IMG/VR virus record: IMGVR_UViG_3300032304_002568
Coordinates: 1-62,662 of that record
Origin: a virus
DNA: 62,662 nucleotides
Direction: 5' to 3' (one strand)
Below the pieces are notes generated by a model that made no database searches, was not told the origin of the DNA, and saw only the letters and a program-made list of their open reading frames with translations. This document shows, piece after piece, positions 3,399 through 22,286 of this stretch; position 1 is the stretch's first letter, and each line of letters begins with the position of its first letter. Both the position numbers and the translations under genes were made by a program.

Positions 3399-3416
3399 CT
3401 GCGATGCGCTGTGGGC

Positions 3417-4238
3417 ATGGGGATTGACCACAGAGAACACAACCGAGCGCCGGGGCAGGCGGGAGGTAGAGCAACCGAAGGTTGGCCCCGTAGGGGCGAG
3501 ACGAGCGGGAGCGAGCGAGTCAAAGGACACAGAGAAAGGTTGCGGGAATTGGCGCGGGTGAGTGGGCGGTTGGTGGAGTTAGCGAGAGTGCAGTCCGTGA
3601 CGGGGCAGATTCTTAATATAAACCCTGTGCCGCGAAAGGTTGCTGACCCGATTCTTAAATCTTTGCGGCGTAAATTGGAAAAGGGCGGGGATCGGGAGGC
3701 TGTGCGGGCGGCGTTCTTGGGGCCGGAGGGGCCACGGATGCGGCGTGCTTCTGGGGAAGCTCCTCCCTCAAGAATACATAAGGAGACTGATTTATGGAAG
3801 CCGAGATTGGTGGACATTGATGGGAAAAAGTCGATTTTGCATTATCGGATAACAAAGCAGGAAAGCCACTTAAAGCCATCCAATGCAGACCTCCCTGCTC
3901 CTCCAAATATGACTTCTGAAGATATCATGCGAAATCACATTGGTTTTTCTTCGGGCAGAGCTATTAGCACATCCACACGACGAGCTTCCGCGATGCGATT
4001 GGTGTCTGAATATGGCGGCAAGACTCCCGTTGAGGGCGTTTATGCCACTCCTTTGGATGAACTCATTAAAAATCAGCGAGAGAAAATCAAGGGGGCGATT
4101 ACTAACGCAAGGTATCCAGCAGAAAGAGAGATCACGCAAACACACGGCGACAATCTTCTGAAAGTGAGGAAGCACAAAGCCATCGTCGATCCCACGCAAA
4201 GACCAGGAGATGATGTTACCTACACACGCCAGCGTTGA
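3417..4238 (+). CDS. Candidate ADP-ribosyltransferase (R-S-E type) with repeat-encoded N-terminus
   Basis: The ATG at 3417 lies 17 nt after a GTTGAC box, the spacing used by the portal gene, so I prefer it to the GTG at 3411. The first roughly 40 codons are made of an expanded copy of the 9-mer repeat, ending in the tag ERLRELARVSG. The last 140 residues have the order expected of an R-S-E ADP-ribosyltransferase: HYRIT (Arg), ISTSTRRA (Ser-Thr-Ser) and YPAEREI (an ExE pair). This is a motif reading, not a search hit. An inverted copy of the same repeat follows the gene at 4258-4385, so the gene is bracketed by inverted repeats just upstream of the portal. Possible role: an effector that modifies a host protein early in infection. 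Confidence 0.5.
   Translation: MGIDHREHNRAPGQAGGRATEGWPRRGETSGSERVKGHRERLRELARVSGRLVELARVQSVTGQILNINPVPRKVADPILKSLRRKLEKGGDREAVRAAFLGPEGPRMRRASGEAPPSRIHKETDLWKPRLVDIDGKKSILHYRITKQESHLKPSNADLPAPPNMTSEDIMRNHIGFSSGRAISTSTRRASAMRLVSEYGGKTPVEGVYATPLDELIKNQREKIKGAITNARYPAEREITQTHGDNLLKVRKHKAIVDPTQRPGDDVTYTRQR
3423..3541 (+). repeat. Expanded repeat: 9-mer ends around an 85-nt hairpin-rich core
   Basis: Begins and ends like the CACAGAGGA repeat but contains about 85 nt of other sequence with short hairpins (CCCCGTAGGGG, and a GAGCGGGAGCGAGC segment). An inverted copy lies at 4258-4385. It is translated as the N-terminus of the gene starting at 3417. Confidence 0.8.
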
Positions 4239-4257
4239 TATGCTAGACCTCCCCTCT

Positions 4258-4385
4258 CACCCCTCCGTGTCCTCCGTGTCCTTTGACTCGCTCGCTCCCG
4301 CGAGCCTCGCCCCTACGGGGCAACCTGCGGTTGCTCTACCTCGCGCCTGCCACGGCGCTCGGTTGTGGTCAATCTCCCGTTGACC
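4258..4385 (-). repeat. Inverted copy of the expanded repeat
   Basis: The reverse complement matches 3423-3541 closely, including three small hairpins CAACCGCAGGTTG, CCCCGTAGGGG and GCTCGCGGGAGCGAGC in a row. It fills the 163-nt gap between the ADP-ribosyltransferase-like gene and the portal. Its left edge in this orientation contains the portal's GTTGAC box (4379-4384). Confidence 0.8.
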
Positions 4386-4401
4386 AGTCCGCAATGAGCG
4401 T
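4379..4401 (+). promoter_or_regulatory. GTTGAC box 17 nt before the portal start; one of 14 such sites
   Basis: A GTTGAC hexamer is followed 15-18 nt later by the chosen ATG at 14 genes. Box starts (gene start) are 3394 (3417), 4379 (4402), 17852 (17874), 22671 (22692), 23262 (23285), 24954 (24976), 26081 (26104), 29641 (29662), 34277 (34299), 38414 (38436), 39205 (39229), 43707 (43731), 44224 (44247) and 47954 (47977). Copies without a start codon at that spacing are at 18393, 22437 and 51251. The box resembles a -35 hexamer, but no -10 box can fit before the ATG, so its role is open. Confidence 0.6.
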
Positions 4402-6117
4402 ATGAACTTTCTGGATCGAGCAGTTTCTTTTTTTGACCCCGAGGCGGGGGTGAATCGGGCGCAGGCGCGGGAGCGGTTGAAGGCATTTGGGTATGATTCC
4501 GCGCAGCCTGGAACGAATCGCGGCGGCAGTGGCGGGAGGCAGAAGAACTCCTCCTCCGAGACATGGCGGATGCAGCGGGATCGTCTGGTGCTCTTGTGGG
4601 ACGCGCGCGATGTGGTGCGGAATTTTTCGATCCTGCGCGGCATCATTTCACGCATCGTTCAATACACCGCCGATACGGTTCAGTATGTCTCGCAGACGGG
4701 GGATGAGGAGATCGATTCGATGTATCAGGATTATTTCCATGCGTGGTGCGAGCGTGCGGATATTACTGGCCGTCACCGGCTGGGCGCTCTGGTTTCCATG
4801 GCGATGTGGAGCCTGCTGGTGGATGGCGATCACGGCTGGCACTTGGTAGAGATCGATGCGGGCGGCAAGCGGCAACTCCGCATCCAATCCATCGAGGCCG
4901 ACCGCATCGGGGATCCGAATAATCCGATGAGTCCTGGCAACAACAACGATATCGGCGGCATCATCGTGGACGAGATGGGTCGCCCTGTCTCCTATCGCAT
5001 CTTCAAGCGCGAGCGGCGCACGGCGTTGTATTCCTTTGAGCGGGAGATTCCTGCCGACCAGTTCATTCACATCTTCGACCCGATGCGGGTGGATCAATAT
5101 CGAGGCGTCACGGCGCTCTCGACCGTCATCGCCCCCGCGCGGGATTTGTATGAGGTGTATCACTTTGAGAAGCTGGCGGCGAAGTGGCAGGTCGGTCATG
5201 CGGGGTTCGTGAAGGTCTCAGACCCGACACGGCGCGACGGCGGCATCTCGGCGTGGAATGGCACGAAGGATAACCGCCCCGACTCTCCCGGCACGATGGC
5301 GATGGAGGCAGGAAAAATCCAACGACTCTCGCAGGGCGAGGACATCCAGTTCGCCCCTGGCACGAACCGCCCGAGCGGAGCGTTCATGGCGCTGGTGCAG
5401 ACGATGGTGCGCGAGATCGCCAGTGGGCTGAATATGCCCTACGGATTCCTCTACGACATGACGGCGTTCTCGGGTCACACGGGTCGCATCGAAATCGCCC
5501 AAGCCATGCGCTCGATCCGTCGCTACCAGAAACTTCTTAGCGAGAAAGCCCTCGACCCGCTGCGGGATCGCGTGATCGGCCTTGGCATTTCTCTTGGGGA
5601 TTTGCCAGCGCATCCGAAATGGCGTAGTGGCCGCTGGGGCTTTGGCCGCTCGCTCACAGGCGACTACGGCCACGACACTACGGCGAATCTCCAGCTTCTC
5701 TCTGCCGGACTCGTCACAGCGACCGACCTCATCGCCGAGACAGGACAATCTTTCGAGGAAGTGGTGCGCCGTAGCGCGAGCGAAGTGGCTTACCTGCAAC
5801 GAGTCGCCACAGAGACAGGTGTGCCGATCGAACTCATCAATCAACGCCTGCCTGGGCCGACTCAAGCCCTCGCCGCCATGGCCGAGCCGCCACAGCCGCC
5901 GCCACCTGGACTCGTGCCGCAGGGCTTGGATGTGAAGCCGCTCTTGGAGTTGCTGAAAAATGTGGGCGAAGGGATATTGGATCGCGAAAGCGCGATTATC
6001 AATCTGATGAACCTGTATGGCGTGGAGCGGAATGCGGCTGAGAAGATGATTCCTGATGGGCCGAAGGAGAAGAGTTTAACCACGGAGAACACGGAGAGCA
6101 CGGAGGGGGAGAAATGA
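4402..6117 (+). CDS. Phage portal protein, lambda type
   Basis: A 571-residue protein that would form the dodecameric ring at the head vertex through which DNA passes. Hallmarks of the lambda gpB family are the R..RDVVRNFSILRG start, a conserved HIF..MRVDQYRGVTAL segment near residues 224-240, then AKWQVGHAGFV, GKIQRLSQGEDIQFAPG and REIASGLNMPYGFLY. The start lies 17 nt after GTTGAC. The C-terminus is odd: the last dozen or so codons are a copy of the 9-mer repeat read in a different frame from other embedded copies, giving a TENTEST-like tail. Overlaps the next gene by 4 nt. Confidence 0.93.
   Translation: MNFLDRAVSFFDPEAGVNRAQARERLKAFGYDSAQPGTNRGGSGGRQKNSSSETWRMQRDRLVLLWDARDVVRNFSILRGIISRIVQYTADTVQYVSQTGDEEIDSMYQDYFHAWCERADITGRHRLGALVSMAMWSLLVDGDHGWHLVEIDAGGKRQLRIQSIEADRIGDPNNPMSPGNNNDIGGIIVDEMGRPVSYRIFKRERRTALYSFEREIPADQFIHIFDPMRVDQYRGVTALSTVIAPARDLYEVYHFEKLAAKWQVGHAGFVKVSDPTRRDGGISAWNGTKDNRPDSPGTMAMEAGKIQRLSQGEDIQFAPGTNRPSGAFMALVQTMVREIASGLNMPYGFLYDMTAFSGHTGRIEIAQAMRSIRRYQKLLSEKALDPLRDRVIGLGISLGDLPAHPKWRSGRWGFGRSLTGDYGHDTTANLQLLSAGLVTATDLIAETGQSFEEVVRRSASEVAYLQRVATETGVPIELINQRLPGPTQALAAMAEPPQPPPPGLVPQGLDVKPLLELLKNVGEGILDRESAIINLMNLYGVERNAAEKMIPDGPKEKSLTTENTESTEGEK
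6073..6112 (+). repeat. 9-mer repeat coding the portal C-terminus
   Basis: A copy of the AACCACGGAG family with 9-base units. Here it is read in the frame giving Thr/Glu/Ser residues, whereas copies at 10586, 13768 and 21978 are read as FNHGGHGEHGG-like peptides. Confidence 0.85.
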
Positions 6118-8351
6118 AGTTTCCTTTGAAGAAGTCTTTATTGGTTTACCATGGCACGAATACGAAGAGCGGCCTTGGTCAAAAAAGCGGATTCTATCCG
6201 GGGACTTATACATCAAAGAGCAAGGAAGTCGCCCAAGGGTTTGGAGAAAACGTAGAAACATTACAGGTTGATTCCTCCAAGATTTTCCCGCTTGCGGATG
6301 CTGATGATCTCAAGCGGAAAGCCTCGAAGGCGGGATTTGGTTTTCATGGGGCAAATGGACGAAGCGAAGCGAATTACCTTAAGTCGCATGGATATATCGG
6401 TATGGCGCGTGGGAATGAAGTGATTCTGTTCCCTTTCAAGAAGCAAAGTGTTCGCTCCTACATAGCAAAGAACCTCTCCGCGAAGTTGCGCTTGCGGGAG
6501 TTTGTTCGTGTGATGGGTGGGGCGGATATACCGGCGAGTATGTCGCAGATTCGCTCGGTGTGGCGCACATTCAAGAATGCTGCGCCTGGCAAGATCGTTC
6601 GTAGCACCACGCAGGGTTCGTCTTTTGGGCCTCGGGGCATGGTGGTTCAGAAGGCGGCGTCGGGAGCCAAGATCGATAGGGAGGCTTTGTTGGCGGGAGC
6701 GACGAATACGACGAACTACCCGATCACCAGTGCCTTGCATGAAGGGGGCCATGCGTTGTTCAACAAGGCTATGACAGGCTCCGCGAACCAGCAATTCCTG
6801 CCGCGACTCGGCAGGGGGCCGACACCGGAGAAGCACCCCTTGCGCGGCGTTCAGATCATGGCCAACGAGATCGGGGCGAATAACTCCGCTGTGCAAGTCT
6901 TGCGCGGGGCGGGAGTGAAGCAAGATGCCGTATCCGATTTTATGAAATTTCGCCAACGGGGTATCGATAGCCACATGAGGTCTGCCCGAGATCATGTCGC
7001 CGCCGCTCCGGTCGGCCTCACTCCCCAAAGGCACCAGGAGATCAAGGGAGCCTTTAACCGCTGGATCACGGATTGGAAAAGATCGCCAGCCAGCCCTAAT
7101 GCCAAGCTCAGCGTCGATGCTCCAGAGTTGGTGAAAAAGGATTTCGAGGCCGTGAAGCTGCGGTTGCGGGAATTGGCGCGTGGAGACTATGCGATTCCTG
7201 CGCTGGGGAAGATGCTGCGGGATCGTTCCATGTTGGAGGAGTTTCTGACAGGCAATCGTGGGCCGAAGATGGGGGATTTTAGGTCTTTTCGATGGGGGCC
7301 GCCGCTTGACCTCGGAGGCAAGGCACCGATCAGGGGTAAGACGGCGATCGTTCCGCTTCACGGGACTTGGGTTGGAACGGAGCCCGTTGTTGCCGTGATT
7401 AAAAACCAAGGCATGTTGAGGCAAGAATCCCGCGAGCAACTCGCCAAAATGCTTCGCAAAGGCCGCGCTGGCGGAGATGTGTATGAGGGCATAGACCGCA
7501 GGTTTTTCTCCGCGAAGCTGCGTTTGCGGGAACTGGCGCGGGGGGATTATGCGATTCCTGCGCTGGGGAAAATGCTGCGGGATCGTTCCATGTTGGAGGA
7601 GTTTCTGACAGGCAATCGTGGGCTGGGGGATTTGAGGGCTGGAAAATTAAGAGGATGGCATAATAATATAAGGCTTATTTCCCAGAAGCCGATTTTTGCA
7701 AGCAATTCTCGCATTGGTAATTTTACAGAGTCGGTAAACGATGCTGCTCGGAACTCAACTTTACGGGCAAGAGAAGGAGATGATTTTCTGCAAAAAGAGA
7801 CTCAAGCGAGAACTGCTGCACGGAATCAGTTGGCTAAAATTATACGCAAGGGGCGTTCTGGCGGTGATGTGTATGATGAGATAGATCGTGGAAAATTCTC
7901 TGGCCGTCTTGTTGGCGATCACGGTCTGTCTGCGAAGCTCCGCTTAATCGAGATGGGCTACACGAAGCCGGGGTTGCGGGATCGGATCAAGGCGCGGATT
8001 ATGGCGAGTGGTAAGGGTGGGCGGCCTGGGCAGTGGAGTGCGCGGAAGGCGCAACTCGTCGCGCAGGAGTATCGTGCCGAGGGCGGTGGCTATAAGGGCG
8101 GGAAGACGGAATCCCAAAAATCCCTTCGCAAGTGGACTCGTGAGAAATGGGGCACGCGATCTGGCAAGCCCAGCACGCAGGGGTCGGAAGCCACGGGCGA
8201 GCGGTATCTGCCTGAGTCTGCGAATAAATCCCTCAGCCCACAAGAGTATGGAGCCACGACCCGCGCCAAGCGCGAGGGCACTCGGCGGGGCGAGCAGTTT
8301 GTGCGACAGCCCGAGCGCATCGCCAAGAAAACAGCCAAGGAGCGTCAATGA
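6114..8351 (+). CDS. Modular polyvalent-type protein: ADP-ribosyltransferase-like, HExxH peptidase-like, duplicated module, DUF5872-like tail
   Basis: A 745-residue mosaic. Residues 1-117 resemble an H-Y-E type ADP-ribosyltransferase: YHGT at 12-15, GTYTSKSKEVAQGFG, and EVILFPFKKQSV near 108-115. After the tag SAKLRLREF, residues 140-340 hold a metallopeptidase-like domain with HEGGH at 209-213 and a downstream NEIGAN segment. A module is then present twice, starting KLRLRELARGDYAIPALGK; its first part is nearly identical at DNA level, 360 nt apart. The last 110 residues (KIRA-type basic region with GQWSARKAQLVAQEY and GGGYKGGKT) recall DUF5872, a family seen in phages and large viruses. Likely packaged or injected rather than structural; this is inference. 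Overlaps both neighbours. Confidence 0.65.
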   Translation: MKFPLKKSLLVYHGTNTKSGLGQKSGFYPGTYTSKSKEVAQGFGENVETLQVDSSKIFPLADADDLKRKASKAGFGFHGANGRSEANYLKSHGYIGMARGNEVILFPFKKQSVRSYIAKNLSAKLRLREFVRVMGGADIPASMSQIRSVWRTFKNAAPGKIVRSTTQGSSFGPRGMVVQKAASGAKIDREALLAGATNTTNYPITSALHEGGHALFNKAMTGSANQQFLPRLGRGPTPEKHPLRGVQIMANEIGANNSAVQVLRGAGVKQDAVSDFMKFRQRGIDSHMRSARDHVAAAPVGLTPQRHQEIKGAFNRWITDWKRSPASPNAKLSVDAPELVKKDFEAVKLRLRELARGDYAIPALGKMLRDRSMLEEFLTGNRGPKMGDFRSFRWGPPLDLGGKAPIRGKTAIVPLHGTWVGTEPVVAVIKNQGMLRQESREQLAKMLRKGRAGGDVYEGIDRRFFSAKLRLRELARGDYAIPALGKMLRDRSMLEEFLTGNRGLGDLRAGKLRGWHNNIRLISQKPIFASNSRIGNFTESVNDAARNSTLRAREGDDFLQKETQARTAARNQLAKIIRKGRSGGDVYDEIDRGKFSGRLVGDHGLSAKLRLIEMGYTKPGLRDRIKARIMASGKGGRPGQWSARKAQLVAQEYRAEGGGYKGGKTESQKSLRKWTREKWGTRSGKPSTQGSEATGERYLPESANKSLSPQEYGATTRAKREGTRRGEQFVRQPERIAKKTAKERQ
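7151..7622 (+). repeat. Two 112-nt direct copies, 360 nt apart, inside the modular gene
   Basis: Bases 7151-7262 and 7511-7622 are almost identical and code for the tag plus GDYAIPALGKMLRDRSMLEE and following residues. The offset is exactly 120 codons. A diverged third copy lies at about 10621-10731 in the next large gene. The sequences after each copy differ but share a QLAK-(M/I)-(L/I)-RKGR end. Confidence 0.9.
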
Positions 8352-8611
8352 GTAGCCGAGCAGGAGAAAATTCGTTAAAAGGGTCTGGTTGCTTGTCTTT
8401 TGGGCAGGCGGGGAAGAGGCGGAAGTATCTCACGCAGGAGGAACAGGAACAGATTTGGATGGAGCATCTCAAGAAGGATATGGAGCGCGCTGAAGAATAC
8501 TTCTGGCGGCAGACGCCCGAGCGGCGGCGGGCGCGGGATATCTACCTGGAGACGCACAAGGGATTTGGAAATAGAGACTTTATTTTTGGAAGGGGAAAAA
8601 ACGATGAGTGA
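8348..8611 (+). CDS. Hypothetical small charged protein
   Basis: An 87-residue protein whose ATG overlaps the preceding TGA by 4 nt and whose end overlaps the next start by 8 nt. It has a basic, Glu-rich helical middle (LTQEEQEQIWMEHLKKD). No family is recognised. The tight coupling suggests co-production with the large proteins on both sides. Confidence 0.6.
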   Translation: MSSRAGENSLKGSGCLSFGQAGKRRKYLTQEEQEQIWMEHLKKDMERAEEYFWRQTPERRRARDIYLETHKGFGNRDFIFGRGKNDE

Positions 8612-11600
8612 GTTCATTCGCAAAGCAATCGAGAAAACAATTATTTTGAAGAAGAAGCCGCATCTCAAGCCACCTGCATCGAGTGGCGTGAATGTGGTGG
8701 GTCAGCACCGCACGCGCCAAGCCTTGCGTCGGTATCTGCGCGAGGCGAATCCCGAGCAGGCACATCGCTGGCCAGAGCTTCCCGATATCGAGGATAATGG
8801 GCAGTTGAGGCTGTTGACGCGAGGGCGGCTGGGTATGAGGCTCAAAGAATTTCGCTATTATCAACCTCCTGGTGGTTATTACGGAAATCCTTACGATAAG
8901 GATTTTGCTCAGGAGAGGCAGAAAGAGCGACGCAATGGGTTGATCAAAGCGGGCATCGTCGGCGCGGGTTTGCTGGGTGGTGGAGCTTTGCTGGGCCGTG
9001 GTTTGTATAAGGTGGGAAAAAGCGGAGCCGTGCGTCGAGCCGAGGATCTGGCCGAGGAAATCTCCAAGCTGCGCGCCAGTAAGGCCGCTGCCAATGTCGG
9101 GAATGTCGCCCCCGCTCCGCGTGGTCGCCCGAAGACCGTCGTTCAGCCTGCTCCGCAGACACCGCAGGCTCAGACGCCTACCCCTACGCCGCCGCCACAG
9201 ACGCCGCCTCCCTCTGCACCGCCCACACCGCCGACAGGCAAAAAGACCACGCCAAAAAAGATGGTCGAAAATTTGAATCAGTCAGGCGAATTACCCGCAG
9301 GTGCCGCCGCCGCCGAGATCGATGAGATCACTGCAGCGGCAGCAGAAGCAGCCAGGCCGCCGCGCAAGCTCACGGCAAGGCAGCAAAAATTAGCGAACCG
9401 GCAGGCTAAAGTCGCCAAATTCGCGGCCGCTCAATCTGGAGGGACGGCCTCCGTGCCGTCCCCTGCTCCCGCAGCGCCGCCTGCAGTCGTTCCGAAGCCT
9501 GATTATAAGCGCCCGAGGGCACCCGTTGGCGGTTGGTTCGGTGGTCCGCCCGATGCTCCGAGCACTGCCGCGCCCAAGCCTCCAGTCAAGACCCAAGCTC
9601 CAGCCAAACCCGTCGCAAGCGCGACGGATCAGGAGTTTTGGGAGAAAAAAGGCGTCGGCAAAGTGCCGCTCACGGGAACGCCCGAGCAGAACGCCGCCCT
9701 GCGCAAAAAACTGGAAGACACTCATGCCGCTGGGGGGTTCAATGGCAAGGTCGCTGCCGATGTGATCGATGAGGCGCGAGCTTCGCTGAAACCGAAATCC
9801 GATTTTCCAGAGGGACTCAGCGATAAACTTCGTGCGGCAGGGAAGGAAAACAATCCGAAGCCTAAAGGTAAGAAAAAGTCCAAGGCCAAAAAACAGGATG
9901 CCGATGAGGCTGACGATCTCGATGATTTGGATGAGGCTGACGACATCAATGAACCGGATGCCTCGGCGGAAGAAGCCGATTGGGAAGCAAAGCTAAAGGA
10001 GAATCCTCAAGTGCGCGCCAAGAAGTCTGCCGCAAAGTCAGATTCCAAAAAGCCTGCCGCAAAAGCTGCTGCTACCAAGCCTGCCGCGAAACCCAAGAAA
10101 GGTAAAAAAGAGGCGGCTCCGCTTTCTTTTGCCGAAAGGATCGCTGCCAAGGTCAAGGCGAAGCGCGACAAAAAGAATGGCAAGAATCTCTCGGCACTCT
10201 TGCGCCGTGTGCGCTATTTCAATCAATTTCAAACCGACGAGGCGGGCATCCCGCTGACAGGGCGCGTGGCGAGGGATCGCTTCGTGAAGAAGCTCCGTGA
10301 TGAGGACTTGGATCGCCGCGATGCGAATATCCTTCGTGCCGGTGGCGCGGGTGCGCTGGCGGGGCTTATGGCTCGTGGCCGCATCGGCGCGAGCAAGCGC
10401 GCACTCATCGGGGCTGGTGCTGGCGGACTCGGCGTAATTGGCATCCGTGCCCTCACGAATAACGACCGCGACATCTACGGCGAGCGGGATCGCGGCAGCA
10501 AGCGCGCGGAGCTGCTCCCTGCTGTGGGTGGACTCGGCGCAGCGGCATGGCTGGCGGGTAAGCGGCTGAAGGCGTTTGCGAGGAAGTTTAACCACGGAGG
10601 ACACGGAGAGCACGGAGGAGGGTTGAAGGAGTTTGCTCGCGGCAAGTATGCCATTCCGGCTCTTGGGAAAATGCTGAAAGATCAGTCGTTGCTGGAGGAG
10701 TTTGTGTCTGGGCAGCGCGGGCCGAAATTGGGAGATTTGGATATTTCAAAAGACTTGAGGATAAAACTTGCGGGGAATCCCAAATTGGCGCGAAGCATGG
10801 CCAAAAAGAATACTCTCCTTGGCCCAGGTCGCCTCACTCATGCAAACACTGACGCTCGAAACTGGGCGGCCGATGCTTTGCGGAGGGGCAGGAAGGGCGA
10901 TCAAATCCTTACGCCGGAAAATCACATTCGTATAACGGCAAGGAGTTTCTCTCCGACTCATGGAAGTGTTACCTTAAAGAGTCCCAGGACTTATATTCAA
11001 TGGCCTCCAAGAAATCTGGAATCAACTGATCTTGCTGCCCGTCTGCGCGGCGTGAAGAACTTTGACGACTACCGGCTCTATTATTTCAAGGGGCGGAATA
11101 CGGGCATTGCCGCGCGGAGTGCGGAGGAGGCTCGTAAAAAGAAGAAGCGGGGCGGCGATGAGTTGGTGGCCGTGCGGACACCGAGCGATTCCGAGCGCGG
11201 CCAGATGGCGCGTGGCGTGTGGGTGCGGACTCGGCGCGATGGGAAGTCGCCTGGGCAGTCCCGCTACGGCAAGGGCCGTGGGCAGGGGCCAGCGCGGAAG
11301 AGCCTTTCTGCAAGATTTGACCACAGAGGACACGGAGGACACGGAGAGATTTCAGGGAAACTGCGGGAGCTTGCGTGGATCTCGGTAAAAACAGATCGGG
11401 TTTCGGCAGATCATGCTGCAGCCAGAAGGGCGATTATAGAAAAATACGGCAAGCCGCAGGTGGAAGCGCGCGATCCGGGTATCGCCGTAGAAAGGAAAGA
11501 CGGCCCTTCTATCTTCGCATCCATGAACAACCCTGATTCGCCATTCTATGTGCCTCCAGAAAAAAGAGAAGAGCGACGCCTGCGCGCAAAAGAATGGCAC

Positions 11601-13196: not shown

Positions 13197-13208
13197 AACC
13201 GGGTCGCT

Positions 13209-13536: not shown

Positions 13537-13562
13537 AACTTAATTCTTAAAACTTAAAACTT
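13534..13562 (+). repeat. Heptamer CTTAAAA repeat before the 592-residue gene
   Basis: Second intergenic run of CTTAAAA-type units, ending one base before the ATG at 13564. Confidence 0.8.
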
Positions 13563-13563
13563 C

Positions 13564-15342
13564 ATGGACTCAAGACCACGCAACAACAACGGCCAATTCG
13601 CTCCCGATGAAATGAGCGGCGTAGATGCCAACACCACCTCTGCGGCCTACAACCCCCAGATCATCGAGGCCCGCAAGGCGACCCTCGCGGAGAAACTTCG
13701 CCGGGCCGTCGGGATTCGCCGTGGCGTGGAGGAAAGCGTGCCGCAAGAGCAAAGGGTTCTTTCCAGGTTTAACCACGGAGGACACGGAGAGCACGGAGGG
13801 GTGAGGGAGTTTTCGATTCTTAATAAATTTTCCAACCTCACCGGCATGGCGCAGATCAAGGCCGGGCGCGAAGCGTTGGGTGCGGCAAAATACAACAGGA
13901 GCCTTAGGGATGCTTATCGAGAAAGTGCCATCAAGGAAGCCAAGTATCCCTACCATGATGCTGATCTTAGGTATAGGCTTGAGAGCAGTGCGAGGCATGC
14001 CGCGATAGAGAGAGGCTTTTATGCTAAGAATGATGTGCGGCGAGCCAGAAAACTCATCAATGAAGGAGTGCGCCGCCGTAACATTTCGATTGGCGTCGGC
14101 GCAGGCGTGGTGGGTGCTGGCGCGGGGGCTGGGTATCTTGCGACGCGCGAGAAAGGCCTCTCCGCGAAGCTCCGCTTGCGCGAGTTGGCGGATATTTCGA
14201 TTGGGACGGCAAAAAAAGTTTTGCGGGAAATCCGGGCGGGGAACCCTGGGTTAAGGATTTTTCGCCCTGAATCAAGCCCTATGATGGCGCAGTATATATC
14301 GCCTCATACATCGAAAAAAATGATCAAAGCGGCAAGAGAGCAGATTGTCGATTTCCAGCCGCATGGACGGGATTTTAAGCTCGCGCCAAATAGCATGATT
14401 GTTCCAAGGGATGTGGCTCGTCGTGATCCAGACCTCAAGGAGCATGTCGAGGATATGAAGAAAATGGTCCTTTCAAGTATCCCTAAGAAATTAGTTCCGA
14501 TTCAGCAAGCCGCATACAAGAAAGCAGAATCACTCAATTCGCCTGTCGGCATGGCTCTGCATGAGGCGGGGCACGCCACCATGCCCGAGAGTGTGTCTAA
14601 AAACATTTCTAAGCTTCAGCAAGCTGCCGCAAAGAATGGCGGGATTTCCATGACGGATCCATATTTCAAGACGGGAATCGATGAGGAGTATAGAGCGAAC
14701 CGTGAGGTTCTTAATAAGATAAAACAGCACGGGACGCCACAAGAGGCTGATAGCTGGAGGAAACGCTCGCAGGATCAGATTAAAATTGGGTATCGCGCTC
14801 CAGTTTTTAATGCCGCGATGATGCAAGAAGCATCTCCAGAAGAGCTTGAAAAAGCCATGGCTGGTTTAGCGCCGTTGTCTTTGAAGCGGCGTGTATTGCA
14901 GAAGTATCCACACATTCGCAAACAGCAACTCTCCGCCAAGCTCCGCTTGCGCGAGTTGGCGCGGCAGGCGGCTTATGATCCCTATGCGGTGCAGGCGCAG
15001 CCTGCGGAGCCGTGGCAGGCAGGCAGAGATTTTCGTAATGCAGCGCTCGGGATCGGGGCTTTGGGTGCTGGTGGAGGCGTGGCCTATGCAGGGTTTCGCG
15101 GAGCGCAGGCGGCCAAGAGCGCGCAGACACTCACGGATGATGCGCTCAAGACCTCGGGCGAGGCTCGCAAGGCGGCTCGCTCGGCGAGGGTTGCGGCAGC
15201 GCGGGTAAATCGTGCTGGCAAGGTGATCAAAACGCAACTCACGACCTTCCCGACTTTCAAGAAGGTGGCTTCCAAGATTTTTGAAGAGGATTTGCAAGGT
15301 CTCAAGGAACTGGCGGCTCGGAGCGTGGAGTTGAACTCATGA
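13564..15342 (+). CDS. Modular protein with HExxH metallopeptidase-like domain
   Basis: A 592-residue protein. It begins MDSRPRNNNGQFAPDE, a flexible opening of the kind seen on phage head proteins. A 9-mer repeat is read as FNHGGHGEHGG before VREFSIL. After SAKLRLRELAD comes a peptidase-like domain with HEAGH at residues 333-337 and a downstream DEEYRANREVL segment; the protein at 6114 has the matching pair HEGGH and NEIGAN, so the two domains are probably homologous and Glu may be the third zinc ligand. After another SAKLRLRELAR comes a Gly-rich hydrophobic segment, a helical region, and a C-terminal LKELAARSVEL. Overlaps the next gene by 4 nt. Confidence 0.65.
   Translation: MDSRPRNNNGQFAPDEMSGVDANTTSAAYNPQIIEARKATLAEKLRRAVGIRRGVEESVPQEQRVLSRFNHGGHGEHGGVREFSILNKFSNLTGMAQIKAGREALGAAKYNRSLRDAYRESAIKEAKYPYHDADLRYRLESSARHAAIERGFYAKNDVRRARKLINEGVRRRNISIGVGAGVVGAGAGAGYLATREKGLSAKLRLRELADISIGTAKKVLREIRAGNPGLRIFRPESSPMMAQYISPHTSKKMIKAAREQIVDFQPHGRDFKLAPNSMIVPRDVARRDPDLKEHVEDMKKMVLSSIPKKLVPIQQAAYKKAESLNSPVGMALHEAGHATMPESVSKNISKLQQAAAKNGGISMTDPYFKTGIDEEYRANREVLNKIKQHGTPQEADSWRKRSQDQIKIGYRAPVFNAAMMQEASPEELEKAMAGLAPLSLKRRVLQKYPHIRKQQLSAKLRLRELARQAAYDPYAVQAQPAEPWQAGRDFRNAALGIGALGAGGGVAYAGFRGAQAAKSAQTLTDDALKTSGEARKAARSARVAAARVNRAGKVIKTQLTTFPTFKKVASKIFEEDLQGLKELAARSVELNS
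13768..13801 (+). repeat. 9-mer repeat in frame inside the peptidase-like gene
   Basis: Read as RFNHGGHGEHGG and followed at once by VREFSILNKF. DNA sequence is nearly the same as the copy at 10586. Confidence 0.85.
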
Positions 15343-16097
15343 ACCTCAAATCCCGACTTAAGGAACTGGCGGCGAAGTCCGAGGAGAAGCGCAGTGGCGT
15401 GGGCCGTGCGGCTTTGATCGGGGGCGGTGTGCTGGCGGGTGGTTTGGTGGGTATGCGCACGCTGCCTCGTTTGCTGCCGAAGGGTCGCTTGGTTCAGGAG
15501 GGGGAATCCCTTCTTGGCAAGGTGGTCTATAACAACCAGGGGCTCACGACGCCTGCGGAGATCATTCATTTGCCGAATGGGCGGAGCCTGCGCGGTGTGC
15601 TGCGGAAAAATCGCGAGGCGTCGGGCGTGAAGGGTGCGCTCTCGCGTGCGGCGCTGAAGGCTGATGAATTCTTGGGCGTGCCGCAGCGGCACTATGGCGT
15701 GGGTGTGGGCAGTGGGCGGATCGCCGAGGTGAGCAAATCGCGTGGGCGTAAAATCGTGGATCAGGGCGAATTCGGCAAGAAGGTCTATATCGACAACGAT
15801 GGCAAGGTGCTGCGTGAGCGGGGTATCCCGCAGCGTGCGGAGGGGCGCGCTGGCACGATGAACGATGCCGAGGTGGAGGCTTTCAACAAACGCTACGAGG
15901 CTTCGCAGGCGGACAAGCGCTGGGACAGGAAGAGCGTGTGCCCAGCGGGAGCGAATAACTGCGAGGCGTATGCGCGCGGCATCGGCACGGGCAAGGCGGT
16001 GAGCCGCCAGGTGCAGGCGATGCGGGTCGGGGCGATGGCTGGGGCTGTGGGTGGCGGCGGCGGTGCGGCTTGGCTGACACAGCGCAAAGAAAAATAA
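15339..16097 (+). CDS. LRAT/NlpC-like (permuted papain fold) protein
   Basis: A 252-residue protein starting with the tag MNLKSRLKELAAK and a hydrophobic segment (residues 24-40). The middle resembles LRAT-like domains of the NlpC/P60 superfamily: HYGVGVGSGRIAE with His118 and, after a strand-rich region, NNCEAYARG with Cys208, followed by SRQ. This His-before-Cys order is that of permuted papain-like enzymes, which act as acyltransferases, lipases or amidases. A second hydrophobic Gly-rich segment ends the protein. Its position in the tagged cluster suggests another effector. The domain call is moderately sure; the reaction is not known. Confidence 0.6.
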   Translation: MNLKSRLKELAAKSEEKRSGVGRAALIGGGVLAGGLVGMRTLPRLLPKGRLVQEGESLLGKVVYNNQGLTTPAEIIHLPNGRSLRGVLRKNREASGVKGALSRAALKADEFLGVPQRHYGVGVGSGRIAEVSKSRGRKIVDQGEFGKKVYIDNDGKVLRERGIPQRAEGRAGTMNDAEVEAFNKRYEASQADKRWDRKSVCPAGANNCEAYARGIGTGKAVSRQVQAMRVGAMAGAVGGGGGAAWLTQRKEK

Positions 16098-16101
16098 CTT
16101 T

Positions 16102-17103: not shown

Positions 17104-17115
17104 CACCTAAATCCT

Positions 17116-17604
17116 ATGGCAAACCTCTGGCAGCGCATCGTGAAGCAGCAAATGGTCGAGGAGTATGAGAATGATCCGAAATATCAATGGGAAACCTACG
17201 CCAAAGTAGGCTGGCACAAGCGCGAGCAGGTGGCAGAGGCGCTGGACTGCCATGAAGGTAAGGTGCAGTGCGTGCTCAGGAGTGCCATCACCTCAAAGAA
17301 GATCGAGCGGCGCGACATACCGATCTGGTGCAAGCTCAACAAGGAGTTGATCAAGGTCGTGGCCTACCGCGAAAAGGGCAAGCACGCCGACCCCAAGGAG
17401 GAGAAGCCTGTGAAGTCCAAGCCCGCCAAGGGCAGCAAGCGCCCCAAGCCGGTAGCGGGTATGACGGTGCGCTCGCGTAGGGGTGGGATGGGAAAAATTG
17501 CTGAGATCGTCCGTGGCCGTATGCGGGTGGACTGGGATAGTGGCAAGAAGACGGAGGCTGCTGTGAGGTCGATCGCTAAGGGCGATATTTTCTTGGAGTT
17601 TTAG
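17116..17604 (+). CDS. Predicted DNA-binding protein: winged-helix-like plus KOW/SH3-like domain
   Basis: A 162-residue protein. Residues 25-80 read like a winged helix (WHKREQVAEALDCHEGKVQ, then a SKKIERRDIP wing region), followed by a Lys/Pro linker and a C-terminal strand-rich segment GMTVRSRRGGMGKIAEIVRG with DWDSGKK, as in small SH3/KOW-like barrels. The two-part layout suggests nucleic-acid binding. No family name is certain. Confidence 0.55.
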   Translation: MANLWQRIVKQQMVEEYENDPKYQWETYAKVGWHKREQVAEALDCHEGKVQCVLRSAITSKKIERRDIPIWCKLNKELIKVVAYREKGKHADPKEEKPVKSKPAKGSKRPKPVAGMTVRSRRGGMGKIAEIVRGRMRVDWDSGKKTEAAVRSIAKGDIFLEF

Positions 17605-17606
17605 CC

Positions 17607-17849
17607 ATGGCCGCGAAGCGCCAGCGCGAAAAGTGCGAGAGCCGCGCGGATGTGGTGGAGCGCGTGGAGCGTATGCTGGCCGAGCACTTTGATGCGGGTG
17701 TGGGTATGGTTTCGTGGGCTGAGGATGGAGAGACGCAATATCTCACACTGAAATTTGGCAATTCCTTTGCCGTGGAGGGTATGAGCGAGCAGCTCCCGAT
17801 GTGTCTGGAGATGCGCGGCGAGGATGAGGACGAAGGGGATGAAGACTGA
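17607..17849 (+). CDS. Hypothetical acidic small protein
   Basis: An 80-residue protein starting two bases after the previous stop. The N-terminus is basic and the C-terminus strongly acidic (GEDEDEGDED). The middle (MVSWAEDGETQYLTLKFG) looks like beta strands. It directly precedes the protease; function unknown. Confidence 0.6.
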   Translation: MAAKRQREKCESRADVVERVERMLAEHFDAGVGMVSWAEDGETQYLTLKFGNSFAVEGMSEQLPMCLEMRGEDEDEGDED

Positions 17850-17873
17850 TTGTTGACGCCTGTGCTGTGTGGC

Positions 17874-19196
17874 ATGGCGACGACAGCAAGTCTTAAAGAA
17901 TTTTACACCCCCTATAACTGCGCGCAGAAGGTGGACGCTCTCAATGGCGTGATCCACGGCGTGGCAGTGATCACCAGTGGGGTGAAGGCGCGCGGGCACG
18001 ATCTGGAGGTGGATGCGAAGACGCTCAACCAGATCAAGGAATGTGCAGAAAAGCTCGGCACGGTGCCGGTGAAGTGGAATCACCGCACAGGGGCGGATGC
18101 CGTGAATGGCTACCTGGATAATTTCCGCATCGAGGACGCGAAGCTCCTCGGGGATTGGCATCTTCTCAAGAGCCACGATCGCTATGCGCAAGCCATCGAA
18201 ATGGCCGAGCGCATGCCAGGGAATGTGGGTCTGTCGGCGGCATTCATGGGCGAGGACGAGATGGAGAACGGGCAGAAGAAAGCCCGCTGCTCGGAGTTGA
18301 TCAGCGTCGATCTGGTGGCAAATCCCGCCGCGAATCCATCCGGCCTTTTTGAAGCAAAACTTCCTGCCGCTCCCACCGAATTCGCGGGGTCAGTTGACAC
18401 GCGAGCAATGGGCGAACCTTTTATGGACAACCAAAACAACCAAGCAAGTGCCGCCGCTGAGCCCACCATGGGCGATCTTCTGGCTGCTATCCAAAACCTC
18501 ACCGAGCGCGTTGCCGCACAGGATGAGACCATCGCGGCTCTTTCGCAAGAGGGTGCCGAAAACGACAACGAAATTTCCCTCGAAGAGATCATGGATCTCT
18601 CGCAGGAAGATATCGCCGCCCTCGTCCAAGCTGGCGAGATCACTGAGGAAGATGCCGCTGGCATCCAAGCCTACCAAGCAGAAGTCATCGCCGCTATCGA
18701 GGCCGATGAAGCTGGTGAGCAGGGCGAAGGCAACGAGCCCGCTGGCGAACTCGCTGGTGCTGGCGCAGGAGTCGAAAGCTCCACAGGCGGCTCCGAGGGC
18801 ACTGCTCTCTCCGCTCTTCAAAAACAAGTCCGTGAACTCTCGGCCCGCTTCGAACGCGAAGACGCCGCCGCTGAGAACAACGAGATCTCACATTATTTCG
18901 CCACTATCGAAGGCAACATGACCCAGCTCGCCGCCGAGCGCGCCGAGTTGAAGGAATTTGCCGACAACCTCGCCGCCGAAAACGACGCGCTTCGCAACGC
19001 TCTCAAAACTGGCATCCGCCCGCTGGCATTCAGCGCCGAGGGTGCTGCCATCAACGGCAAAAACGGCGAACTCCATGAGTTCGAAGCCCGCGTGCAGAAC
19101 CACAAGAGCCAAGGCAAATCCCACGCCCAGGCCGTGATGCTCGCCCACAAGGAAAATCCTGAAGCGCACCAAGACTGGATCCGCAACCAGGGCTAA
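17874..19196 (+). CDS. Prohead protease fused to scaffold
   Basis: The ATG at 17874 is 16 nt after GTTGAC; the open frame begins at 17850. The 440-residue protein has an HK97/S78-like protease at residues 15-170, with candidate catalytic His70 (VKWNHRTG) and Ser121 (NVGLSAAF), and the typical ELISVDLVANPAANP end. Residues 180-440 are acidic and coiled-coil-rich, as in a scaffold. It would direct capsid assembly and then cut head proteins. The N-terminus contains SLKEFYT and the scaffold contains VRELSARF, ELKEFADN and ELHEFEAR, matching the L-x-E-[L/F] tag of the modular proteins and hinting at self-cleavage sites. Confidence 0.85.
   Translation: MATTASLKEFYTPYNCAQKVDALNGVIHGVAVITSGVKARGHDLEVDAKTLNQIKECAEKLGTVPVKWNHRTGADAVNGYLDNFRIEDAKLLGDWHLLKSHDRYAQAIEMAERMPGNVGLSAAFMGEDEMENGQKKARCSELISVDLVANPAANPSGLFEAKLPAAPTEFAGSVDTRAMGEPFMDNQNNQASAAAEPTMGDLLAAIQNLTERVAAQDETIAALSQEGAENDNEISLEEIMDLSQEDIAALVQAGEITEEDAAGIQAYQAEVIAAIEADEAGEQGEGNEPAGELAGAGAGVESSTGGSEGTALSALQKQVRELSARFEREDAAAENNEISHYFATIEGNMTQLAAERAELKEFADNLAAENDALRNALKTGIRPLAFSAEGAAINGKNGELHEFEARVQNHKSQGKSHAQAVMLAHKENPEAHQDWIRNQG
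18423..19196 (+). CDS. Possible nested scaffold from an internal start
   Basis: An in-frame ATG at 18423 begins MDNQNNQASAAAEP exactly where the protease part ends and the scaffold begins, as in lambda where Nu3 is nested in the protease gene C. A GTTGAC box is at 18393, but its spacing (24 nt) is outside the usual 15-18, and no strong ribosome-binding site is visible. Inference only. Confidence 0.35.
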   Translation: MDNQNNQASAAAEPTMGDLLAAIQNLTERVAAQDETIAALSQEGAENDNEISLEEIMDLSQEDIAALVQAGEITEEDAAGIQAYQAEVIAAIEADEAGEQGEGNEPAGELAGAGAGVESSTGGSEGTALSALQKQVRELSARFEREDAAAENNEISHYFATIEGNMTQLAAERAELKEFADNLAAENDALRNALKTGIRPLAFSAEGAAINGKNGELHEFEARVQNHKSQGKSHAQAVMLAHKENPEAHQDWIRNQG

Positions 19197-19219
19197 TTCA
19201 ACCAAAGGAAAAAAATACT

Positions 19220-19579
19220 ATGAACTTCAATACCGTTGTTTCGCTCCCCGCCGCAGTCGATCTGTCCGGCCAGGAGCACACCGCAGTCAAACTCACCTCC
19301 TCTGGCGTGGATATCGCCGGGGCTTCCGACACCGTGATCGGCACCGTGATTCGTGGCGCTGTCGCAGGACGTGCCGTGGACGTGTTTCTCTCCAAGGGAA
19401 ATGGCCTGCGCTTTGTCCGTGTGGGCAATGCCACCGCCATCCCTATGGCTAGCGCACTGGAGCAAGCCGCAAACGGCACCTTCGTGGTCAAGACCACCGG
19501 CACCACCGCTGGCTACGCCGTCGAGGCCGCGCCCGCAGGCAGCAATGGCGGCGGAATGATCCGCGCCATCATCCTCTAA
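19220..19579 (+). CDS. Capsid decoration-like protein
   Basis: A 119-residue, beta-rich protein with AAAGGA before the start. It lies between protease/scaffold and capsid, the usual place of a head decoration (cement) protein. The sequence (DLSGQEHTAVKLTSSGVDI, then VIRGAVAGRAVDVFL) is rich in small residues like such proteins. Assignment is by position and composition. Confidence 0.6.
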   Translation: MNFNTVVSLPAAVDLSGQEHTAVKLTSSGVDIAGASDTVIGTVIRGAVAGRAVDVFLSKGNGLRFVRVGNATAIPMASALEQAANGTFVVKTTGTTAGYAVEAAPAGSNGGGMIRAIIL

Positions 19580-19608
19580 AAATCAACACTTAATAGAAGA
19601 AAACGATT

Positions 19609-20565
19609 ATGGCATACAATACTTCAGACTCCGTTCCACGGCAGGACATCTCCACACTTTTGATGGAAGGCGTCCACCAGGAGAAACACTACGTCGCCTC
19701 CAGCCTCCTGCCCGTCTACGGCAGCCAGCGCGAGGTCGGACGCTACCCGAAATTCCGTCTCGGCAAGGGCGAGCTCTTGAAAAAAGAGAGCCAGAAGCGC
19801 AATGCGACCGGCACCTACAACGAATCCGAAGAGCAATTCGAGTGGGACAGCTATCAGACTCAAGAATACGGCCACGAGAAGCGTGTGGACGATGTTGTGA
19901 AGAAGCAAATGGGCGACTTCTTCGACGCGGAGATGGTCACTGCGAAGTTCTGCATGAATAAACTCATGCTCGACTACGAAGTGGAAGCCGCCGCAGCGAT
20001 CATGAATCCCGCGACCTTCACAGCGACTGCCGCAGGCACAGCCTACACCGAAGCGAACCTCGCGACGATGGACTTCCCCGCCGACATCAACGCCACGATC
20101 GAAGCCCTCACCCTCAATGGTGAAGAGCCAAACACGATGGTGTTGAGCCTCTCGGTCTACAACCGCTTGAAGCGCTCCAAGCTGCTCCAGACCTACCTCT
20201 ACGGCCACCTGAACACCACTCAGGGCGGATCAAACATCACCCCGAATCTCATCGCCGAGGCCTTTGGCATCCCGAATATCGTGGTCGCCAAGAAGTCCTA
20301 CGACAACGCGATCAAGGGCAAGATGAATGTCGTTCCTGTGTGGGGCAACGAATACATCTGGATCGGCGAAGTGCAAGGCGGTGACTTCATGACCGGCGGC
20401 TGTGGCCGCACGATCATCTGGGACGCCGACAGCGAAGGCGGCCTCTTCACCACCGATCAATACCGCGACGAGCCTCGTCGTGGCGACAAGATCCGCGTGC
20501 GCAGCAATCGCGTGATCAAAATCGTGAACCCGAACTCGGGCCGACTCATCACCACCGGACTCTAA
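19609..20565 (+). CDS. Major capsid protein
   Basis: A 318-residue protein likely of the HK97 fold. It follows protease/scaffold and decoration genes. The N-terminal arm is helical (ISTLLMEGVHQEKHYVASSL), and the TMVLSLSVYNRLKRSK segment and the C-terminal RRGDKIRVRSNRVIKIVNP strand are typical of capsid P and A domains. No L-x-E tag and no long N-terminal delta domain are seen, consistent with a separate scaffold. A strong terminator follows. The exact family was not identified by search. Confidence 0.85.
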   Translation: MAYNTSDSVPRQDISTLLMEGVHQEKHYVASSLLPVYGSQREVGRYPKFRLGKGELLKKESQKRNATGTYNESEEQFEWDSYQTQEYGHEKRVDDVVKKQMGDFFDAEMVTAKFCMNKLMLDYEVEAAAAIMNPATFTATAAGTAYTEANLATMDFPADINATIEALTLNGEEPNTMVLSLSVYNRLKRSKLLQTYLYGHLNTTQGGSNITPNLIAEAFGIPNIVVAKKSYDNAIKGKMNVVPVWGNEYIWIGEVQGGDFMTGGCGRTIIWDADSEGGLFTTDQYRDEPRRGDKIRVRSNRVIKIVNPNSGRLITTGL

Positions 20566-20576
20566 GGAAAGGTATG

Positions 20577-20626
20577 AAGGAGGAAGGATGAAGTAGGAAA
20601 CTGCTGAATCCTTCCTCCTTTTTTTT
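20577..20626 (+). terminator. Strong Rho-independent terminator after the capsid gene
   Basis: A perfect 13-bp stem AAGGAGGAAGGAT (20577-20589) / ATCCTTCCTCCTT (20608-20620) with an 18-nt loop is followed by a run of T. The left arm is part of a GAAGGAT heptamer repeat, so the terminator seems to be built from a repeat and an inverted unit. Confidence 0.88.
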
Positions 20627-20639
20627 GAAAGGAAATTTT

Positions 20640-21152
20640 ATGAAGAATATTAACCACAGAGGACACAGAGAACACGGAGTGAAGGATCTCAAGCCTGCGC
20701 TTCGCGAGCTGGCGGCTCGCAGCGAGGCGATTACGGAATTCGCCATGGTGCGTGACGCCAATGGGCAGTTCGTCGAGGTCGAGGACGAAGGCGGCATGGG
20801 CGTGGGCACGGCGGTCAAAGCCGGTGCAGGTGCTGCTGCTCTCGGTGGCGCTGGCTATGGAGCTTATCGTGGCCATAAGGCTGTGATGGGCGTCGGTGCA
20901 GACGAGTATGCAAAAAAATCTGCCATGGCAGCGACTGCGGCGGATCGTGTTGGCTCTACTACTCCGATTGCTCAGCGTGCGGCAAACTACAAAATCGCCA
21001 AGGCAGGTGCTGCGGGTAACTTCGATCGCATGGGCTTCATGGATAAGGTCAAGACTGGTTACGGCATGGCTGGGCAGTCCGCTATGAACTCTGCGGCTGG
21101 TCGTTCCGGGTTGCTTGGGCGGCTCGGTCGATTTGCGCTAAAGCTCCGCTAA
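20640..21152 (+). CDS. Tagged protein with repeat-encoded N-terminus and glycine-rich segment
   Basis: The ATG at 20640 follows GAAAGGAAA and gives 170 residues. The first codons are a 9-mer repeat (INHRGHREHG), then the tag LKPALRELAARSEAITEFAMV, then RDANGQFVEVEDEGG, and a Gly/Ala hydrophobic segment near residues 55-80. The protein starting at 21288 has the same order. Both resemble small versions of the large modular proteins. Function unknown; placed after the capsid terminator. Confidence 0.6.
   Translation: MKNINHRGHREHGVKDLKPALRELAARSEAITEFAMVRDANGQFVEVEDEGGMGVGTAVKAGAGAAALGGAGYGAYRGHKAVMGVGADEYAKKSAMAATAADRVGSTTPIAQRAANYKIAKAGAAGNFDRMGFMDKVKTGYGMAGQSAMNSAAGRSGLLGRLGRFALKLR
20649..20682 (+). 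repeat. 9-mer repeat coding an N-terminus
   Basis: Copy with CACAGAGGA units directly after the start codon region of the gene at 20640. Confidence 0.85.
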
Positions 21153-21161
21153 ATAACTCAC

Positions 21162-21232
21162 TGCAGGATGGAGAAACGGTATCTCACGAGGCCCATAACC
21201 TTGCGTTCCGGGTTCGATTCCCGGTCCTGCTA
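21162..21232 (+). tRNA. tRNA-Met (CAT) with initiator-like features
   Basis: A 71-nt cloverleaf. Acceptor 21162-21168 / 21225-21231 has six pairs and a T-T mismatch at the first position. D stem is GAGA/TCTC, anticodon stem CGAGG/CCTTG with loop CCCATAA (anticodon CAT at 21194-21196), variable loop of 4, T stem CCGGG/CCCGG with loop TTCGATT, discriminator A. CCA is not encoded. The missing first pair and an A11-T24 pair are marks of bacterial initiator tRNAs. C at position 33 instead of T is odd, as is A29-T41 instead of G-C. Confidence 0.75.
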
Positions 21233-21287
21233 ATTTCCACACCACCACAACCGCTGGCAGGCCGGTATAAAGTCTGCTTCTTTTTTT

Positions 21288-22286
21288 ATGATTAACCACA
21301 GAGGACACAGAGAGCACGGAGGAATGAGGCTGAAGCTTCGCGAATTTGCTTTGGTAAGGGATGCCAATGGGCAGCTTGTCGAAGATGGGAATAATGGAGG
21401 CAGCGGGTTCAAGACGGCTGCAAAGGTCGGGCTTGGCGCTGCTGGTGTAGCTGGCGGGGCTGTGCTTGGAACAAGATGGTATCATGCTAACAAGGCTTAT
21501 CAGGCAGAGGGTGGCATCGGTAAGGTCTATGGCGATGTAAAGAAGATGTATGCTGCTGGGGATTCTAAGGGTCTTCAGAACTTACACGGGAGGCTGTCTT
21601 CCAACGCTCAAGCAAGCGCCAGAGCCGGATGGATGGGGAAGCTGGGCAAAGTCGGAAATGTTTTAACAAAATTCTCTGCCAACCTCGCGCCTGCTTTGCG
21701 CGAGCTTGCTGCTCGCAGTGGGCGGATCGTGGAGTTTGGCGATGGCGAGGCCGATGAGGCGGTGATTGCGGCTTTGAAGGCTGCGGCGAGCGCGGATGAG
21801 ACGCCGGCACAGCGGGCGATGCTGCTCAAGCGCGGCCTCATCGAGATAGTGAAGGGCCAACTGGTGATCAATGAGCGTGGCTATGACATGATGAAGAAGG
21901 CAGGCGTGCCGCCGAAGCTGACTCCCGAGGAACGCCGCGAGGAGATCATGGGGACTGAGGAGAAGCGGCTTTCCAGGTTTAACCACGGAGAGCACGGAGG
22001 ACACGGAGTAGAATTTGCTCGGGGGGATTATCTCAAGTCAATAATGGGGCGCAGGGGCGTGCCTACACCCCACATTGATGCGTGGCTGAAAGCAAAAAAA
22101 TCTCCGGGCAGTATGACTCGGGTTGGTGATCTTCCAGATTTTGTCCATGCCATGCGAGGAATGAGGGAGCAGGGATATAAAAGGCCCGCATTTCCTTTTG
22201 AGATAGAAGATGGCTCCCCTGATTGGGTTCCTGTGAAATGGAAGCTGCGAGGGCCTGAGGCATCGGATTCGTATAGTAACCCGTGA
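21288..22286 (+). CDS. Tagged modular protein, 332 residues
   Basis: The ATG lies directly before a 9-mer repeat, so the protein starts MINHRGHREHGG, followed by RLKLREFALVRDANGQLVED, close to the order in the 170-residue protein upstream. A Gly/Ala hydrophobic segment follows, then LAPALRELAARSGRIVEFGDG, a helical region, a second in-frame repeat (RFNHGEHGGHG) and VEFARGDYLKSIMG with an unfamiliar C-terminal domain of about 70 residues. No catalytic motif seen. Part of the tagged family. Confidence 0.6.
   Translation: MINHRGHREHGGMRLKLREFALVRDANGQLVEDGNNGGSGFKTAAKVGLGAAGVAGGAVLGTRWYHANKAYQAEGGIGKVYGDVKKMYAAGDSKGLQNLHGRLSSNAQASARAGWMGKLGKVGNVLTKFSANLAPALRELAARSGRIVEFGDGEADEAVIAALKAAASADETPAQRAMLLKRGLIEIVKGQLVINERGYDMMKKAGVPPKLTPEERREEIMGTEEKRLSRFNHGEHGGHGVEFARGDYLKSIMGRRGVPTPHIDAWLKAKKSPGSMTRVGDLPDFVHAMRGMREQGYKRPAFPFEIEDGSPDWVPVKWKLRGPEASDSYSNP
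21291..21323 (+). repeat. 9-mer repeat coding an N-terminus
   Basis: Copy of the CACAGAGGA type at the start of the 332-residue protein. Confidence 0.85.
21978..22009 (+). repeat. 9-mer repeat in frame inside the 332-residue gene
   Basis: Read as FNHGEHGGHG just before VEFARGDYL; unit order differs from the other copies. Confidence 0.85.

Follow-up and report, generated by a model that had tools for sequence, protein, structure and literature searches.

The window analysed here is the whole 62,662-nt virus record IMGVR_UViG_3300032304_002568 (~62.7 kb). On its plus strand a portal gene and a major capsid protein (MCP) gene enclose a block of long cargo-type genes and a probable protease-scaffold gene, and a short peptide tag with an L-x-E-[L/F] core recurs across this region:

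3411-4238, + strand: tagged ORF upstream of the portal gene, with a double tag LRELARVSGRLVELA at 3540-3584
4402-6117, + strand: portal protein (PF05136, 8.7e-49), with a single LLEL and no full-form tag
6114-8351, + strand: 745-aa tagged cargo protein, tags at 6492, 7164, 7524 and 7944
8604-13196, + strand: large tagged cargo protein, tags at 8841, 10623, 11361, 12234 and 12855, C-terminal WDVRD module
13564-15342, + strand: 592-aa tagged cargo protein, tags at 13801, 14176, 14947 and 15301
14161-14931, + strand: 771-nt HEAGH cassette, between two near-identical SAKLRLRELA tags
15339-16097, + strand: 252-aa tagged protein, N-terminal tag LKELAAKS at 15357; LRAT-like signal non-significant (E 0.25)
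17874-19196, + strand: probable fusion of an assemblin-type prohead protease with a coiled-coil scaffold; four tag-like sites (17892, 18828, 18948 and 19071)
19609-20565, + strand: MCP (phrog_1005, 1.1e-34), no tag
20640-21152 (ORF opens at 20625), + strand: tagged protein after the MCP, double tag LRELAARSEAITEFA at 20700-20744
21288-22286, + strand: tagged protein, tags at 21336, 21696 and 21726

The tag is concentrated in the cargo block between portal and protease, in the genes right after the MCP gene and in the ORF before the portal gene, for which no Pfam, PHROG or PDB match was found. The 745-aa protein consists of an HExxH module, two copies of a tag plus RGDYAIPALGKML module and a DUF5872-like C-terminus. 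The large cargo ORF opens at 8400; its true start is probably the ATG at 8604, giving 1,530 aa, because relatives begin this protein with MSE[FL][IL]RKA. Downstream of the MCP gene, a tRNA-Met gene (anticodon CAT) at 21162-21232 separates two tagged genes. The 252-aa, weakly LRAT-like protein (15339-16097) has a similar-looking counterpart in a far relative (L049:8479-9540), which starts without an N-terminal tag.

Enrichment of the tag in the window and in related loci

A sequence-only reading of this DNA had described the tag in eight proteins, close to N-termini and at module borders, and each motif place that it named was found: SAKLRLREL-type tags, LKEFARG at 10623, LKELAAR at 15301, SLKEFYT at 17892, VRELSARF at 18828, ELKEFADN at 18948 and ELHEFEAR at 19071. 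The described location held as well, and the MCP (19609-20565) is tag-free, as that reading had said. Together the eight proteins, 4,417 aa in all, have 24 matches to L-x-E-[L/F], against a shuffled mean of 2.15 and a maximum of 7 over 500 shuffles; four of these matches are not tags, being LLEEF in a single repeated module (three) and LDELI (one). In the remaining 52 proteins (14,933 aa) there are 13 matches (shuffled mean 9.1), and the tail and late genes, with 6 per 9,937 aa, have no excess, so that the comparison with shuffled sequences and tail genes by which the reading had proposed to be judged came out in its favour. The stricter pattern [LIV].E[LF][AS] gave 18 matches in the eight proteins (0.89 shuffled) and 4 in the others (3.8 shuffled). 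Single LREL or LREF cores do occur outside the eight proteins, for example at 47549, 58914 and 61052.

Indeed, the tag stands out without a motif chosen beforehand, since an open search for gapped 5-mers in the 60 window proteins ranked LRELA first, with 8 occurrences for 0.05 expected; HG.HG, whose over-representation has its source in a DNA repeat, came second, and SAKLR third. The L-x-E-[L/F] tag is real, beyond chance. Its codons vary from gene to gene, and on this ground a mere mobile DNA repeat was rejected.

A protease search of virus contigs yielded 9 loci and a protease-profile search 32, copies included. The profile also matched five genome contigs, titled Spartobacteria, Verrucomicrobiales, Akkermansiaceae, Verrucomicrobium sp. 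BvORR034 and Chthoniobacter, which we take all to belong to one phylum; the phage group is linked to Verrucomicrobia. A strict DNA pattern for SAKLRLRELA found 13 stretches on 12 contigs, 8 of them already among the loci of the first protease search. In relatives at 51-71% protease identity the tag is kept as protein, in genes of the same position.

Because the eight window proteins had been chosen for the tag, the count was repeated on ORFs of relatives picked by position rather than by tag, with every ORF of the block counted; the boundaries of the block were drawn by hand, and ORF calling was mechanical, on a single strand. For [LIV].E[LF][AS], the seven near relatives gave 67 matches in the cargo block (4.9 shuffled) versus 0 in other genes, and the four mid relatives 25 (1.8 shuffled) versus 3. 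The eleven far relatives gave 14 in 14,126 aa (2.2 shuffled) versus 14 in 41,082 aa of other genes (p=0.005); with plain L.E[LF], their cargo was not significantly richer than other genes (p=0.063). These counts include 13 untagged block ORFs (11 near, 2 far); a first count, in which a pattern had removed them, had found identical hits.

Form of the tag, its junctions and exchangeable cassettes

Across 136 distinct sites from 12 genomes the consensus is approximately [LF]-[SA]-A-[KR]-x(1-4)-[RK]-L-[RK]-E-[LF]-[AS]-x-R-S, its core being biased because L-x-E-L/F served for selection. In a second, double form, LRELAARSxRxxEFA, two cores lie ten residues apart. The seed [LFM]-[SAC]-A-[KRN] is followed downstream by hydrophobic-[RKVHI]-x-[FLM] in 73 of 113 cases; x is E at 55 of these 73 sites, and the residue after that E is L, F or M in all 55. 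With a slightly narrower seed, the core follows in 56/104 cases in cargo versus 1/30 in other genes. In the consensus, position-specific scoring matrix (PSSM), seed and N-terminal counts, as in the first enrichment count of relatives and the first HExxH count, mutual-copy loci (for example L005/L006/L007 and L001/L023) were counted once, and untagged block ORFs such as a calcineurin-like phosphoesterase were dropped by a pattern. When 72 largely unrelated cargo proteins were aligned (from 83 of at least 110 aa, 11 having been omitted by hand as unlikely cargo; 20 of 24 loci), 'LxAxxxxLxEF' was the most recognisable consensus stretch. The first tag lies within 30 aa of the N-terminus in 24 of 54 tagged proteins, for 10.3 expected, so that a short peptide at cargo N-termini, as would be expected of a capsid-targeting sequence, is present, along with many internal copies.

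Conservation at the joints between tag and module was counted by eye, and only identical contexts were dropped, which gives near relatives more weight. At the WDVRD junction, L or F stands nine residues before W in 15 of 16 contexts, preceded by E in 7, and in 0/9 of the mid and far contexts. At GGIP (15 contexts, one a free start, plus L029 and L034), F occupies the joint in 13 of 16 fused contexts, with E before it in 4. All seven fused forms of RPRN-GQF have F and three have E; the distance from F to RPRN in four of the seven equals that from the initiator Met to RPRN in five of nine free forms; the start lies one residue later in the window and in three others. E is kept at RGDYAIP in 13/13 contexts, the far relatives L041 and L048 among them, and at GGY in 4/4 joints. 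Judged from these contexts, L/F is the more constant position, and E is usual but not obligatory. The sequence-only reading had proposed, on T4 logic, a cut after L-x-E. The conserved E at RGDYAIP and GGY agrees with this; at WDVRD, GGIP and RPRN the E is often replaced while L/F is kept, so a cut at that point is possible but not singled out. The module RGDYAIPALGKML directly follows E-[L/F]-[A/M] in 13/13 contexts (window 7150-7263, 7510-7623 and 10609-10722; L041:8938).

Members of the 592-aa protein family have in common the N-terminal 60 residues and a KLRLRELA...PY part. At the site between these parts the window holds the 771-nt HEAGH cassette, L001 a different cassette of 291 nt, and L004 no cassette and a single tag, with flanks 93-97% identical among the three. 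The two tags of a pair around a cassette are 1 nt in 33 apart in four of five genomes, and 5 nt apart in L006. Such near-identity indicates that part of the tag copy number comes from recombination; taken with the differing codons between genes, it suggests that DNA exchange and peptide-level selection are both at work. A structure model of the 592-aa protein (mean pLDDT 35) was not interpretable, and a PDB search with two cargo modules returned nothing of use.

A separate DNA repeat of ACCACGGAGGACACGGAGAGCACGGAG type has ten copies in coding and non-coding sequence (at 1102, 6079, 10591, 11320, 13772, 20653, 21295, 21982, 22600 and 23608; 0 in 100 shuffles). At 10591, 11320, 13772 and 21982 it lies in frame inside a tag, between LSAKF-like and KEF-like halves. 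A shorter core of the repeat occurs in 19 of 57 loci, comprising near relatives and tag-pattern matches.

The probable protease-scaffold and the cargo modules

From sequence and layout, the product of 17874-19196 is probably an assemblin-type prohead protease fused to scaffold. Twelve members share H70, S121 and D146 without exception, and the His and Ser stand in the H...GYL and [GL]-S-x-x-F contexts of assemblins. A profile match to the head maturation protease of Bacillus phage Riggi (probability 94.9, E 4.5e-8, His and Ser aligned) supports the earlier claim that a probable prohead protease adjoins the tagged cargo genes. In structure searches with a protease model (mean pLDDT 63), T4 gp21 was the best match (Z 7.6, below 8; 125 aa, 4.1 A), followed by KSHV, PRV and HCMV proteases at Z 3-5, interspersed with unrelated Mce/LetB rows; Foldseek gave gp21 at E 0.2-0.4 (probability 0.54-0.80), with ribosomal chains above it by E-value. 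Alignment by hhalign to single T4 gp21 and P2 gpO sequences gave no match, Pfam, NCBIfam and PHROG scans named no family and returned weak coiled-coil-like matches only, and a PDB sequence search with the protease profile gave weak coiled-coil matches to the scaffold half only. The second half is a predicted coiled-coil with a conserved end (19050-19190), which in near members reads HEFExxV...GKxxAQAxxLAxKENPExH and is possibly the shell-binding end.

The tag-like sites within this protein fared less well than those in the cargo. The N-terminal LKEF of the protease, which the sequence-only reading had taken for a tag, is not conserved, F alone being kept, and in the alignment of this family the scaffold sites do not keep the tag form; some tag-like stretch does occur at varying places in 17 of 24 protease-scaffolds, whose best PSSM window exceeds the 95th percentile of shuffles. 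As proof of tag function, these sites were set aside.

A Pfam scan of the 72 cargo proteins of 20 loci matched InPase (2), DUF6321 (4), DUF5872 (2) and LRAT (1, at 1.6e-5), among others; the InPase match reached 3.5e-45 with the module alone as query. PHROG matches in the relatives' cargo (DarB-like antirestriction, 2e-29; virion structural; endolysin; minor head protein) fall in one region of two proteins. In L034 this is also the InPase region, so the DarB-like and InPase matches are not independent. HExxH occurs in the cargo of 9 of 24 loci; in the window it appears as HEGGH in the 745-aa protein and HEAGH in the 592-aa protein. The window's DUF5872-like match (2.8e-5) lies under the curated cut-off, its ART-PolyVal match is non-significant (E 0.11), and a PF03420 scan of its record gave no match but was uninformative, since the controls were silent too. 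Several disparate domains per polypeptide, the hallmark of polyvalent proteins, are thus found in the relatives through InPase, HExxH and the DarB-type PHROG, whereas by the same domain searches the evidence from the window's own proteins is thinner. Polyvalent proteins are regarded as cargo that is packaged in the head and injected (PMC5512222). Hydrophobic, often Gly-rich segments number 1.14 per 1000 aa in cargo and 0.70 elsewhere.

Readings of the tag and comparison with known systems

For the tag as a whole, we put at about even the chance that it is a selected protein-level joint, serving both head-targeting and processing of modular polyvalent cargo. Like a T4 capsid-targeting peptide, the tag would draw cargo into the prohead's scaffold core. 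There the protease would trim N-terminal copies and cut internal ones, so that a single long precursor would give rise to a number of separate effectors, ready to be ejected; such cuts may fall after E, the position first proposed, or after the L/F that varies less (L-x-E-[L/F] / [A/S/G/D]). Packaging, cutting and ejection of the tagged proteins are steps that we infer. N-terminal copies would be odd for cutting alone, and several internal copies odd if targeting were the sole function; a dual role accommodates the two. A bolder form, which we advance tentatively and rate somewhat short of even, is a polyprotein system in which cassettes, each bounded by one universal peptide, would be swapped by recombination, loaded by the tag and released by the protease at L-x-E-[L/F]/[A/S]; a virion would then deliver a custom set of separate enzymes.

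The tag could instead be an amphipathic helix that docks on scaffold, portal or shell, with cargo loaded uncut. Cleavage motifs are usually 4-6 residues long, and the conserved stretch, rich in L, A, K, R and E, exceeds this at ~15 residues; E is dispensable at some junctions, and a similar stretch is present in the scaffold (LSALQKQVRELSARFER), as in the 17 of 24 protease-scaffolds above the shuffle threshold. Docking, however, needs no multiple tags per protein at module borders, and the scaffold matches are spread over several positions that are not homologous to each other, including one within the protease domain. We consider docking alone unlikely, but the alternative to be taken most seriously.

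Somewhat less probable still is a joint of value to the DNA, a short shared sequence for cassette swaps that leaves the peptide an inert linker. The near-identical paired tags (1 nt in 33 in four of five genomes) and the empty, filled and differently filled sites are what such a joint would produce, but codons vary among tags of different genes, the tag persists as protein at 51-71% protease identity, and N-terminal tags require no joint. That the cargo's own HExxH (zincin) modules, rather than the prohead protease, cut the tags is an idea in print for polyvalent proteins (PMC5512222, in the parts used here), and HEGGH and HEAGH in the 745-aa and 592-aa proteins would supply the enzymes; yet only 9 of 24 loci have HExxH in their cargo, some loci being cut off at an end, and L001, L004 and L008 are tag-rich with no HExxH in their cargo as sequenced, which makes this reading very improbable. 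Chance, or the composition of charged helical proteins, could account for the LLEEF and LDELI matches but is contradicted by the shuffle counts in the window and in the position-picked ORFs of relatives, and we give it practically no credence.

Little is settled about the way in which multi-domain head-packaged proteins are loaded and matured. Here the joint recurs with a defined consensus, the adjoining protease is its likely cognate, and sites occur naturally in empty and filled form, which makes the question directly testable. If the dual targeting and processing role is true, the tag would offer phage heads a plug-in cargo signal, and head-packaged effectors of uncultured phages could be found by sequence alone. 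In the open-access literature, within the portions that we drew on, we found no account of such a recurring inter-module peptide, which is not proof of novelty.

The Riggi protease resembles the present one in the profile match over the protease domain, but the Riggi scaffold is a separate gene. Head proteins of SPN3US and phiKZ are cut at A-x-E or S-x-E (PMC10052503, PMC5694885). In the sections of these papers used here, several head and ejection proteins have repeated protease motifs in propeptides, a likeness to the present system; unlike here, the cuts fall after Glu, 13/14 of them in N-terminal propeptides and not at module joints. The P1 Dar system (DarA, DarB, DdrB) and polyvalent proteins at large share with these loci the multi-module cargo and, in relatives, InPase and HExxH. 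According to the parts of the P1 papers used here, DdrB and DarA are processed before packaging (PMC5512222) and a reporter enters the capsid when given DarB's 30 N-terminal residues (PMC9024508), but a recurring inter-module peptide was not found in those portions. Set against T4, the present peptide also turns up within long multi-module proteins, some of its copies lack E at the proposed P1, protease and scaffold form one polypeptide, and no sequence match to gp21 was found. In T4, as far as the excerpted accounts go, the internal head proteins IPI-III and Alt carry a capsid-targeting sequence and are cut by gp21 (PMC9958956, PMC5694885), and the likeness on that basis lies in a short N-terminal peptide on several cargo proteins, a prohead protease, a scaffold core and effector-type cargo.
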